From Nocardioidaceae bacterium (GTDB lineage Bacteria; Actinomycetota; Actinomycetes; Propionibacteriales; Nocardioidaceae): a stretch of 59,687 nucleotides of DNA. The stretch is from assembly GCA_013361955.1 (NCBI GenBank), contig JABFXA010000028.1:1-59687 (forward strand). Reading direction: 5' to 3'. The translations under genes were made by a program, and so were the position numbers. Under the pieces are notes generated by a model. It saw only the letters and a program-made list of their open reading frames with translations, ran no database searches and was not told the DNA's origin. Below, piece by piece: positions 34,821-43,991 of this stretch (position 1 is the first letter of the stretch; the number at the start of each line of letters is the position of its first letter).

Positions 34821-35441
34821 ATGGCCGCACACCGGGTCACCGACTTCGGTGGGCTCCAGATCGAGTACGACGACCGGGTGCTCGCGCCGCGGCAGTGGAC
34901 GACGGCGCAGGCCCGGTGGATGGCCGACGTGCTGCGCCGGCTGCCGGACGGACCGGTGCTGGAGCTGTGCTCGGGAGCCGGTCACATCGGTCTGCTCGCC
35001 GGCGTCTACACCGGCCGCGACCTGGTCATGGTCGATGCCAGCGAGGCCGCGTGCGAGATGGCGGAGCGCAACGTGGCCGCCAACCCGGTCAAGGGCTCGG
35101 TCGACGTACGCCGGGGCCGGGTCGACGAGGCGATCGCCCCGGAGGAGAGGTTCGTGGGGATCATCGCGGACCCGCCGTGGGTCCCGAGCGCACGGACCTC
35201 GACGTTCCCGGAGGATCCGGTGACCGCGATCGACGGGGGTGAGGACGGCCTGGCCCTGGCTCTGGTGTGCGTCGACGTGATCGACCGCCATCTCGCGCCG
35301 GACGGAGCCGCGATCCTCCAGGTGGGCACGGTCGAGCAGGCGGAAGCCGTGCGGGAGCGGCTGAGGACCGGCCTTCGGGTCGTCGAGACCCGCACGTTCG
35401 GCGACCGCGGCGTGCTGGTCCGTCTCGACCGCCGCGGCTAG
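34821..35441 (+). CDS. N5/N6-type methyltransferase (HemK/TrmN6-like small-domain)
   Basis: A 206-residue Rossmann-fold methyltransferase. VLELCSGAGHIGLLAGVYTG (about residues 40-60) binds SAM, DLVMVDASEAACEMAERN is motif II, and IIADPPWVPSARTSTFPED carries the (D/N)PP(Y/W) motif of enzymes that methylate planar nitrogens (bases or glutamine). The rest, including LVCVDVIDRHLAPDGAAIL, is consistent with PrmC- or TrmN6-like proteins. The ATG has a strong SD (AGGAGGGG). Its stop overlaps by 4 nt the end of the convergent DAO oxidase gene. The acceptor is unknown. Confidence 0.82.
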   Translation: MAAHRVTDFGGLQIEYDDRVLAPRQWTTAQARWMADVLRRLPDGPVLELCSGAGHIGLLAGVYTGRDLVMVDASEAACEMAERNVAANPVKGSVDVRRGRVDEAIAPEERFVGIIADPPWVPSARTSTFPEDPVTAIDGGEDGLALALVCVDVIDRHLAPDGAAILQVGTVEQAEAVRERLRTGLRVVETRTFGDRGVLVRLDRRG

Positions 35442-41067: not shown

Positions 41068-41164
41068 GCGCCGCACCGCGGACCCGGCCCTCATCGCCGG
41101 TGGGTGCATGGCGGCCCGGGAGAGGGGGTACGACGCGGCCCCGAGGGAGAGGAGGGGCGCGGGG

Positions 41165-42148
41165 ATGGAGCTGCCCACGCCGCGTGGACCGGTCAGCGCG
41201 CACGTCGTGCACGCGCTGCGGTCCGGGGACGCGTTCGAACCTGCGGTCGCGGCGTCGGCCGACGTGCTCGGCGACGACGCCCAGGTCGCCCTGTGGGTGT
41301 TGCTGCAGCTGCACTACCGCGACTTCGACGACGCCGCCCGCGACGCCGAGTGGGACGTCGGCGCGGTCGCGTTGCGGCAGACCTTGGCGGAGTCCTTCGT
41401 GGACCGCCTGCGCGGGCTCGTGACCGAGCGGGTCGCCCTCGCCCGGGACGCGGCCGACGACGTGCCCGGACAGGTGATGGCGATGATCGGGGCCGCGGAC
41501 GGGCCGTCGCTGGCGGCGTACCTGCACCGGGAGGCGACCCGCGAGCAGGTGCTGTCGTTCCTGAGACAGCGCAGCCTCTACGCCCTCAAGGAGTCCGACG
41601 CGCACTCGTTCGTGCTGCCCCGGGTGCACGGGTCCGTGAAGGTGGCCCTCGCCGAGCTGCAGTACGACGAGTACGGCGCCGGGCGGCCGGACCGCCTACA
41701 CGCGGGGATGTACGCCGAGGCTCTCGTCGCGGCCGGTCTCGACCCCCGCTACGGGAGGTATGTCGACGAGGTGGCCGGCCCGGTGCTGGCGGTGGACAAC
41801 CTGATCTCGGTGCTGGCGCTGCAGCGTCGGACGCGCGCAGCGTCGCTCGGTCAGCTGGCGGCGTTCGAGGCAACCAGCTCGCTGCCGAGCCGCAGGATCG
41901 CCGCCGGGATCGAGCGGGTCGGCCTGCCGAGGGCCGTGGCGGCGTACTTCGACGAGCACGTGGAGGCCGATGCGGCGCACGAGCAGATCGCGTTGCGTGC
42001 CGTGTGCGGCGCTCTCGTCGCGGCCGAACCCGAGCTCGCCGACGACGTGCTCTTCGGGGCGGCGGCGTACCTCGAGCTCGACGAGCGCTCGGCCGTGCAC
42101 CTGCTGGCCCGGTGGCGCGACGACGAGGTCGTGGAGGCCGCGTCGTGA
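41165..42148 (+). CDS. Iron-containing redox enzyme (heme-oxygenase-like diiron protein)
   Basis: A 327-residue all-helical protein. LWVLLQLHYRDFDDAARDAEWD, then QRSLYALKESDAHSF, KVALAELQYDEYGAGRPDRLHAGMYAEAL and YFDEHVEADAAHEQIALRAV fit the heme-oxygenase-like diiron fold (HDO), where H/E/H and E/H residues from several helices bind iron. Known members are oxygenases that fragment or N-oxygenate amines and fatty acids. The ATG at 41165 follows GAGAGGAGGGG; an ATG at 41108 is less likely. It overlaps the CDGSH gene (GTGA), so both are translationally coupled. Confidence 0.8.
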   Translation: MELPTPRGPVSAHVVHALRSGDAFEPAVAASADVLGDDAQVALWVLLQLHYRDFDDAARDAEWDVGAVALRQTLAESFVDRLRGLVTERVALARDAADDVPGQVMAMIGAADGPSLAAYLHREATREQVLSFLRQRSLYALKESDAHSFVLPRVHGSVKVALAELQYDEYGAGRPDRLHAGMYAEALVAAGLDPRYGRYVDEVAGPVLAVDNLISVLALQRRTRAASLGQLAAFEATSSLPSRRIAAGIERVGLPRAVAAYFDEHVEADAAHEQIALRAVCGALVAAEPELADDVLFGAAAYLELDERSAVHLLARWRDDEVVEAAS

Positions 42149-42336
42149 CCGGCCCGGTGCGCGTGACGCCCTGTCCCGACGGACCCCTGCTGGTCCGCGG
42201 TGCCGACGTCGTGACCGACGAGGACGGCACCGACCACCCGGTCACCCGACCGGTCGTCGCGCTGTGCGTCTGCGGCAAGTCCGGCCGCCGGCCGTGGTGC
42301 GACGACACCCACCGATCGATCAGGAGGTCGACATGA
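42145..42336 (+). CDS. CDGSH iron-sulfur-domain protein
   Basis: A 63-residue protein whose C-terminal half holds the CDGSH signature: LCVCGKSGRRPWCDDTHRS, giving C-x-C-x8-C-x3-H ligands for a [2Fe-2S] cluster. The N-terminal VTPCPDGPLLVRGADVVTD is the usual lead-in of short bacterial CDGSH proteins. GTG start overlapping the TGA of the diiron enzyme; its own stop overlaps the next ATG. Probably an electron donor or iron-sulfur accessory for the heme-oxygenase-like enzyme (inference from coupling). Confidence 0.88.
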   Translation: MTGPVRVTPCPDGPLLVRGADVVTDEDGTDHPVTRPVVALCVCGKSGRRPWCDDTHRSIRRST

Positions 42337-42434
42337 CGCATCGTCCCGACGCCCGCCCCGACCTCGAGGGCCTGCCCACCGAGGAGGAGCCGGGCCAGGC
42401 CCTGGCCGACTGGGACCTGCCGGAGGAGTCGTGA
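42333..42434 (+). CDS. 33-residue acidic micropeptide, translationally coupled
   Basis: MTHRPDARPDLEGL then PTEEEPGQALADWDLPEES: no known domain, strongly acidic, probably disordered. Its ATG overlaps the CDGSH stop (ATGA) and is preceded by AGGAGG with a 5-nt spacer inside the CDGSH gene, a much better SD than chance would give. Its stop overlaps the next GTG. I therefore believe it is translated. Function unknown; it may be an accessory or maturation factor of the iron enzyme pair. Confidence 0.65.
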   Translation: MTHRPDARPDLEGLPTEEEPGQALADWDLPEES

Positions 42435-42586
42435 GCGACGACGGCAACGTCCGCACCCTGCGCGAGCGCGCGGGCGAGGGCGACGTGGTGTTCACGGACT
42501 GCCGGGGTGAGCCGCAGGCCGTCGGGCCCTCCGGTCACGACCCCGATGACGACGACCCGAGGGCGTTCGCCGTCGTGGGTGCGTAA
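42431..42586 (+). CDS. 51-residue acidic micropeptide, last gene of the coupled unit
   Basis: MSDDGNVRTLRERAGEGDVV then FTDCRGEPQAVGPSGH and a run of acidic residues (DPDDDDPRAFAVVGA). The GTG overlaps the previous stop (GTGA) and follows GGAGGAG. There is one Cys and no membrane segment. No recognised family. With the preceding three genes it forms a chain joined by 4-nt overlaps; a strong hairpin lies about 107 bp after its stop. Confidence 0.6.
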   Translation: MSDDGNVRTLRERAGEGDVVFTDCRGEPQAVGPSGHDPDDDDPRAFAVVGA

Positions 42587-42692
42587 CGCGGAAAGCAAAG
42601 AGACGTTGACCAGGTGCGGCGTCTCGTGAACGGCGGGCCACTCGCCCCGCCGAGACGCCGAGCGTCGGCCCACCCCCCGGAGTCCGATGCTC

Positions 42693-42733
42693 GCGGCGGG
42701 CGGGTCCTCGCAGGGAGGCGACCCGCCCGCCGC
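42693..42733 (+). terminator. Long GC-rich hairpin between two operons
   Basis: A perfect 14-bp stem: GCGGCGGGCGGGTC (42693-42706) with GACCCGCCCGCCGC (42720-42733), loop 13 nt. No T-run follows, which is usual for actinobacterial terminators. It separates the iron-enzyme unit from the lipoprotein unit; a second, weaker hairpin (CCGG-GCAGCTCC...GGAGC-CCGG) follows near 42768-42793 in the leader of the lipoprotein gene. Confidence 0.65.
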
Positions 42734-42809
42734 TGCAGTCTTGGAATGCCTGCCGATGGGTACGCACCCGGGCAGCTCCGGAAGGGAGCCCGGCGAGAAG
42801 TAGGTCGTC

Positions 42810-43220
42810 ATGCGTGAGCTGACCAGGTACGGCGTGGTCGTGGTGCTGGCCGCGGTCCTGCTCGCGGGCCTGTCCGGGTGCAGCCAGCCGGACGCGCCGG
42901 CGGTCGACTCCGTGGCGCGCGAGTTCCGGAGCACCGCCGCGGACGGCGACACCGCGCGCGCCTGCTCGCTCCTCGCACCAGGCACCCGGGCCGAGCTCGA
43001 GCAGTCGGCCGGCCGGCCGTGTCCGCAGGCACTGGGCCCGGAGGTTCGTCCCGCGGCGGGACGGGTGCGGGGCACCCAGGTGTTCGGCACCATGGCGAAG
43101 GTCGCCTTCGAGCACGACACCGTGTTCCTGGCCGAGTACCGCGGCGGGTGGAAGGTGCTGGCTGCCGCATGCACCCGGGTGCCGGGACATCCGTACGACT
43201 GTCACCTGCAAGGAGGCTGA
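42810..43220 (+). CDS. Small lipoprotein
   Basis: A 136-residue secreted lipoprotein. MRELTRYGVVVVLAAVLLAGLSGC is a type II signal peptide with the lipobox Cys at 24. The mature part (AVDSVAREFRSTAADGDTARACSLLAPGTRAELE) resembles the small actinobacterial NTF2-like/hypothetical lipoproteins in which a conserved Cys pair (RACSLL...GRPCPQ) probably forms a disulfide, plus a later pair (AACTRV...YDCHL). Anchored on the outer face of the membrane. First gene of a unit with a 27-residue peptide and a DUF6766-type protein. Confidence 0.8.
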   Translation: MRELTRYGVVVVLAAVLLAGLSGCSQPDAPAVDSVAREFRSTAADGDTARACSLLAPGTRAELEQSAGRPCPQALGPEVRPAAGRVRGTQVFGTMAKVAFEHDTVFLAEYRGGWKVLAAACTRVPGHPYDCHLQGG

Positions 43221-43221
43221 C

Positions 43222-43305
43222 GTGCGCGCCCTCTTCGTGGTCTACCTGGTCGTGATCTTCGGTGGCCTGGCCGCCATGTTCGTGCTGGGGATGGTGCACA
43301 CATGA
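43222..43305 (+). CDS. 27-residue single-helix membrane peptide
   Basis: VRALFVVYLVVIFGGLAAM then FVLGMVHT: almost entirely hydrophobic, one membrane helix with a G-G-x-x-A packing motif. GTG start preceded by AAGGAGG at 5-nt spacing, an excellent SD; the stop overlaps the next ATG (ATGA). Too short for ordinary gene prediction. It may be an assembly subunit or regulator of the adjacent DUF6766-type membrane protein (inference). Confidence 0.65.
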   Translation: MRALFVVYLVVIFGGLAAMFVLGMVHT

Positions 43306-43991
43306 GTGCCAGGACTCGCTCGCGGCCCTTCCGGGAGTCGTCGCTCGGGATCTTCTTCGGGGTCATCTTCCTGGCCGCGCTGGTCGGCCAGGCGGTCGCC
43401 GGCTGGCTGGCGTTCAACGACGAGCAGCTCGCCCAGGGGCTCGGTCGGATCGGGCTCGCCGACTACCTCGGCTCGGCCCCCTTCGCCGCCGACGTCGCGG
43501 AGAACTGGCAGAGCGAGTACCTCCAGTTCCTGCTCTACATCACCGCCACGATCTGGCTGCTGCAGAAGGGCTCCCCGGAGTCCAAGGAGCTGGACAAGCA
43601 GGGGCTGGAGAGCGACGAGGACCAGAAGGTGGGGCGGTACGCCGACCCCGACTCGCCGGCGTGGGCCCGCGTCGGCGGGCTGAGGACCACGGTGTTCGCC
43701 TGGTCGTTGACGATCGTGATGGGCCTCGTCTTCGTGCTCTCCTGGCTGGCACAGTCGGTGGCCGGGTGGGCGTCGTACAACGAGACCAGCCTGCAGCAGC
43801 TGCAGGACCCGATCAGCTGGCCGGCGTACCTGCACAATCCCGACTTCTGGTCCCGCACGTTGCAGAACTGGCAGTCGGAGTTCCTGGCCGTGGGTTCGAT
43901 GGCCGTGCTCAGCATCTACCTGCGCCAACGCGGGTCACCGGAGAGCAAGCCCGTCGGCGCCCCGCACGCGAGCACCGGGGTCGAGGGGTGA
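43302..43991 (+). CDS. DUF6766-type membrane protein with internal duplication
   Basis: A 229-residue integral membrane protein with four hydrophobic helices. Residues 17-95 (LVGQAVAGWLAFNDEQL ... ENWQSEYLQFLLYITATIWL and KGSPESK) are repeated at about residues 140-215 (LAQSVAGWASYNETSL ... QNWQSEFLAVGSMAVLSIYL and RGSPESK). Both copies keep SVAGW/AVAGW, NWQSE and GSPESK, so the protein arose by duplication of a two-helix module. Function unknown. Coupled by ATGA to the 27-residue peptide. Confidence 0.78.
   Translation: MSARTRSRPFRESSLGIFFGVIFLAALVGQAVAGWLAFNDEQLAQGLGRIGLADYLGSAPFAADVAENWQSEYLQFLLYITATIWLLQKGSPESKELDKQGLESDEDQKVGRYADPDSPAWARVGGLRTTVFAWSLTIVMGLVFVLSWLAQSVAGWASYNETSLQQLQDPISWPAYLHNPDFWSRTLQNWQSEFLAVGSMAVLSIYLRQRGSPESKPVGAPHASTGVEG

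Follow-up and report, generated by a model that had tools for sequence, protein, structure and literature searches.

The locus analysed here raises the question of whether an oxygenase, an iron-sulfur protein and two acidic micropeptides, encoded by overlapping genes of a Nocardioidaceae bacterium, belong to one conserved complex, and of what the conserved part of that unit does. The window, meaning the whole stretch of DNA that was analysed, is 59,687 nucleotides long (assembly GCA_013361955.1, contig JABFXA010000028.1).

Organization of the locus

The window shows four ORFs on the + strand, of 327, 63, 33 and 51 amino acids, chained by GTGA, ATGA and GTGA overlaps. The first (41165..42148, ATG start) encodes a heme-oxygenase-like diiron oxygenase (HDO, PF14518) and the second (42145..42336, GTG start) a CDGSH [2Fe-2S] protein (PF09360), followed by two orphan acidic micropeptides: mp33 (42333..42434, ATG start, pI 4.05) and mp51 (42431..42586, GTG start, pI 4.17). 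The overlaps are located at 42145-42148 between HDO and CDGSH, at 42333-42336 between CDGSH and mp33, and at 42431-42434 between mp33 and mp51. Each ORF has its own Shine-Dalgarno (SD) sequence: AGGAGG at 41150..41155 for HDO, GGAGG at 42133..42137 within HDO for CDGSH, AGGAGG at 42322..42327 within CDGSH for mp33, and GGAGG at 42422..42426 within mp33 for mp51. Coordinates and SD sequences thus confirm the four-gene overlap chain, with an SD inside each preceding gene, that the preliminary description had reported. The chain is flanked upstream by a gene encoding a hybrid histidine kinase, and downstream by a lipoprotein-like ORF and then a DUF6766 gene (42810-43991). Neither an intrinsic terminator nor a promoter for the unit was found by consensus, and the region 3' of mp51 folds into a hairpin no better than shuffled sequences do.

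The oxygenase and its predicted metal site

The HDO matches PF14518 with 2.2e-51 and 174.6 bits, against a curated cut-off of 28.9. Its AlphaFold2 model (pLDDT 96.3) shows the seven-helix heme-oxygenase fold, with Foldseek matches to HrmI, SznF, RohS, FlcD, CADD and UndA; the top ones, HrmI (TM 0.76), SznF and RohS, are all N-oxygenases. The same three are the closest solved structures by profile (HrmI 4.8e-22, RohS 4.7e-18 and SznF 1.5e-14). Across 54 sequences, seven ligand residues never vary: E169, H179, E235, H265, D269 and H272 form the 3 His/3 carboxylate diiron set of the HDO superfamily, and E143 aligns with LSEA of SznF and LTEA of RohS, as the predicted extra glutamate, on the auxiliary helix, which defines the 3H/4C class in a review of HDOs (PMC13108848). 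In SznF, the counterparts of the seven residues lie in the motifs LxE, DEYG, H, E and EHxxxDxxH. Since they fall on the metal-site motifs of SznF, extra glutamate included, the predicted metal site assigns the enzyme to the SznF/RohS ligand type (3H/4C), non-heme diiron enzymes that activate O2. Judged on its closest relatives, it most likely oxygenates the nitrogen of a small amine, and fatty-acid oxygenation appears less likely than amine N-oxygenation. The family match, the fold and the invariant ligands all bear out the earlier naming of this gene product as a heme-oxygenase-like diiron enzyme. Only about a dozen of more than 10,000 HDOs have been characterised (PMC13108848).

Conservation of the HDO-CDGSH pair

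To place the pair among its relatives, 110 loci were collected, 30 from genome searches of relatives and 80 from a species-level genome collection, two sets that partly overlap. A CDGSH sequence lies downstream of HDO on the same strand in 97 actinobacterial loci, as a separate gene in 95 and in one ORF with HDO in two. The start codon is placed at a 4-nt HDO/CDGSH overlap in 71 of the 97 loci (43 ATGA and 28 GTGA), and the spacing is within 60 nt in 15 further loci; the translational coupling of HDO to CDGSH seen in the window is therefore kept across actinobacteria. HDO is present in 250 of the 295 Nocardioidaceae genomes sampled, most of them giving a second match that would fit the CDGSH gene, and in the 20 listed Nocardioidaceae genomes without an HDO match the CDGSH match is absent too at the cut-off used. 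The family and class genomes are samples rather than exhaustive sets. In some genomes, including some of the same order, CDGSH instead lies opposite to HDO in a divergent or convergent arrangement, which counts against the two-protein unit proposed below. HDO and CDGSH are a real, deeply conserved pair in actinobacteria, near-core in Nocardioidaceae.

Two candidate HDO::CDGSH fusions were set aside as Rosetta-stone evidence. Locus L012 (genome G018) has a run of G that is longer by one G than in the 90%-identical genome G053, for which reason it was given no weight as evidence; its single ORF could reflect a real fusion or an error of sequencing. The sequence of L132 is truncated. A search of an open library turned up no paper that connects CDGSH proteins with HDOs. 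A near-core actinobacterial HDO coupled to CDGSH offers each of the two families a testable partner, and serves two questions: the role of bacterial CDGSH proteins and how an HDO is re-reduced.

Neighbours of the pair are less constant. A gene encoding a class I methyltransferase follows CDGSH in the closest relatives; elsewhere this place is taken by a zinc alcohol dehydrogenase gene, an unrelated gene or nothing. By tblastn, a methyltransferase with a DPPW/Y motif lies within a few kb of HDO-CDGSH in 36 of 109 loci. The ortholog in the window (DPPW motif, 34821..35441, + strand, about 5.7 kb upstream of HDO) is the best match in its genome, with 211 bits vs 39, and this methyltransferase may belong to the module as a loosely linked third component. 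The zinc alcohol dehydrogenase, of 393 aa, is found 3' of CDGSH, often with a 4-nt overlap, in a Nocardioides group (L082, L084, L085, L087, L094 and L104). A glycosyltransferase-like protein of about 340 aa, without a Pfam match, is encoded between HDO and CDGSH in L013, L079 and L126 and after CDGSH in L121; it was not found in the genome of the window.

The CDGSH protein and the role of the pair

The CDGSH protein matches PF09360 with 1.3e-13 and PDB 3TBM with 8.2e-14, and its ligands C41, C43, C52 and H56 are invariant in 30 sequences, the window protein having CDDTH; the 63-residue CDGSH protein of the preliminary description is well founded on this match and these ligands. It shows the type 4 pattern: the motif CxCx2(S/T)x3PxCDx(S/T)H in a single copy, within about 60-75 aa. 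Over 94 loci, HDO has a mean pI of 4.95 and CDGSH one of 7.83. Since CDGSH lacks any flavin or NAD(P)H domain, it must itself receive electrons from a reductase; no reductase gene is linked to HDO-CDGSH.

The region 41165-42336 would encode a two-protein redox unit, an HDO N-oxygenase with a CDGSH partner that is most likely its electron donor, a reading to which we give slightly better than even chances. HDO would activate O2 at the diiron site and oxygenate the nitrogen of a small amine, and CDGSH, supplied through translational coupling, would act as its dedicated [2Fe-2S] partner, passing the electrons that make the site diferrous again after each turnover; the acidic HDO may dock the neutral-to-basic CDGSH. 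To our knowledge, CDGSH proteins have no established donor role to oxygenases, which counts against this model. Precedent for an HDO partner comes from MboA, which needs a dedicated reductase with a [2Fe-2S] cluster and flavin, MboB, for multiple turnovers, in what may be the first case of an HDO with a redox partner of its own; against the donor model, most HDOs run on chemical reductants in vitro (PMC13185094).

The conserved coupling would be just as expected of a maturation partner, and the main mechanistic rival of electron donation is that CDGSH serves as an iron or cluster donor, or as a repair factor, which loads a labile HDO diiron site. CDGSH proteins of the mitoNEET type are able to pass on clusters, which counts for metal loading. 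So do the labile diiron clusters of many HDOs (PMC13108848), but other HDOs take up their iron unaided; we consider metal loading unlikely, and electron donation is favoured.

What the electron-donation unit is for is a separate matter, and the confidences held for its chemistry and for its biological role are not mutually exclusive. The pair is near-core in Nocardioidaceae, unlike a niche biosynthetic cluster, and some relatives have genes nearby for SigB/F-type sigma factors and for regulators with PAS and ANTAR domains, as well as catalase-like genes. DtpC, an HDO co-transcribed with katE, protects dried cells of A. baumannii (PMC13232832). These points would suit a unit for protection from oxidative or desiccation stress, in which HDO detoxifies or senses without making a product and CDGSH is its redox sensor or partner. 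Against this, the neighbourhoods vary and have no single stress gene in common, the DtpC paper does not mention CDGSH, and the likeness to DtpC is one of description; such a stress unit is therefore put forward as a tentative possibility. Owing to the near-core distribution and to some stress-type neighbours, a physiological or protective role in general is about as plausible for HDO-CDGSH as a dedicated product.

The micropeptides mp33 and mp51

Neither mp33 nor mp51 matches a Pfam, NCBIfam or PHROGs family. Their GC by codon position (0.85/0.49/0.94 for mp33 and 0.82/0.51/0.92 for mp51) shows strong actinobacterial periodicity: a GC3-GC2 difference as in mp33 occurs in 0.00015 (0.015%) of Markov sequences of 33 codons, and one as in mp51 in none of 20,000 Markov sequences of 51 codons. 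With the ATGA given, a two-ORF overlap chain with SD sequences arises in 199 of 60,000 simulations (0.3%), and the chain, the SD sequences and the codon periodicity together in none of 60,000. The codon log-odds of both ORFs lie in about the top 1-4% of those of the short non-coding ORFs of the window, and above that of the CDGSH gene. Since the codon periodicity and the chain geometry go beyond chance, translation of mp33 and mp51 is likely, probably from the 3' end of the HDO-CDGSH mRNA. Their acidity would in part be expected of GC-rich coding frames anyway. Prodigal has a minimum gene length of 90 nt, which mp33 (102 nt) and mp51 (156 nt) exceed, so that it is not strictly right to place them below the usual gene-calling limits, as had been done.

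Searches across related genomes returned no counterparts of either peptide in about 95 related HDO-CDGSH loci, the window itself apart, and no relatives in the genus, in 294 other genomes of the family or in 394 other genomes sampled at class level; mp51 also has no relative in plasmids. Weak search matches to mp33 and mp51 sit inside long unrelated frames. The closest HDO relative compared has about 58% identity, and peptide conservation was judged at or beyond that distance. Nocardioides sp. Root140 (L064) shows the same downstream order as the window, namely HDO, CDGSH, the lipoprotein-like ORF (46%) and DUF6766 (72%), but CDGSH and the lipoprotein-like ORF are separated by 48 nt, compared with the 473 nt that hold both peptides in the window.

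The coupled start-stop overlaps, the SD sequences and the coding statistics would be compatible with mp33 and mp51 as conserved accessory subunits of the oxygenase. Set against their absence from the related loci and the sampled family and class genomes, and against the 48-nt gap of L064, this reading is scarcely credible, and the conserved stoichiometric complex with two accessory peptides that had been proposed is not upheld; the comparison of neighbourhoods across actinobacteria, suggested for finding conserved coupled micro-ORFs, gave no mp33 or mp51 counterparts in related loci. Genomes with the same enzyme and CDGSH gene but without the peptides had been named in advance as evidence against that proposal; Root140, with its 48 nt, is such a genome, so the general claim falls and what is left of it is a role confined to this lineage. 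It would be a further step to see HDO-CDGSH as a widespread two-component monooxygenase with CDGSH as obligatory donor, in which the two new acidic micropeptides of this lineage gate the transfer of electrons as effector subunits, bound either to the oxygenase or to the basic surface of CDGSH; we hold this to be very unlikely.

The adjacent frames and similar composition of the two peptides, in a fragmented assembly of 478 contigs, could also come from a single 84-aa gene frameshifted by assembly or sequencing, or from the remains of some larger gene, for example the methyltransferase. However, mp33 and mp51 meet at a regular GTGA overlap that is preceded by an SD, and the 84-aa join has no family match, so a split gene or remnant is quite unlikely. 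A broken methyltransferase in particular was rejected: no remnant is found at 42300-42820, and the intact ortholog lies 5.7 kb upstream, at 34821-35441. From their distribution, mp33 and mp51 are probably recent, lineage-restricted genes outside the ancestral HDO-CDGSH machine. They look like recently born coupled genes, and are of less weight than the HDO-CDGSH pair.

Comparison with known systems

SznF (PDB 6VZY) and RohS (9PFX) have the HDO fold in common with the window enzyme, whose E143 aligns with the extra SznF carboxylate (3H/4C), and their remaining E, H, E, H, D and H ligands are as in the window, at 16-19% structural identity. SznF has a cupin domain and the window HDO does not; SznF and RohS are encoded in known biosynthetic clusters, whereas the window HDO adjoins a CDGSH gene. 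The lysine N-oxygenase HrmI (PDB 9N1A/9N1X) is the best match by both profile and fold, over nearly the whole HDO (TM 0.76), with about 21% identity, but it lacks an equivalent of E143 (3H/3C). DtpC of Acinetobacter baumannii is an HDO with a candidate non-biosynthetic role, and the spacing of its described E143 and H153 equals that of E169 and H179 in the window HDO; DtpC is co-transcribed with katE, which is not the partner in the window, and not with CDGSH.

Like the window protein, the type 4 CDGSH proteins (Lin et al., 2011, PMC3174974; 3TBM) are small, prokaryotic, single-motif proteins that are common in Actinobacteria, and Lin et al. (2011) mention no oxygenase or operon partner for them. 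MboB is a flavin and Fe2S2 NAD(P)H reductase, whereas the CDGSH partner in the window, of 63 aa, has no reductase domain, which sets the window pair apart from the MboA-MboB type; MboA is the only HDO with a reported dedicated redox partner. Both pairs nevertheless join an HDO to a dedicated [2Fe-2S] partner, and in both the enzyme is acidic and the partner basic.
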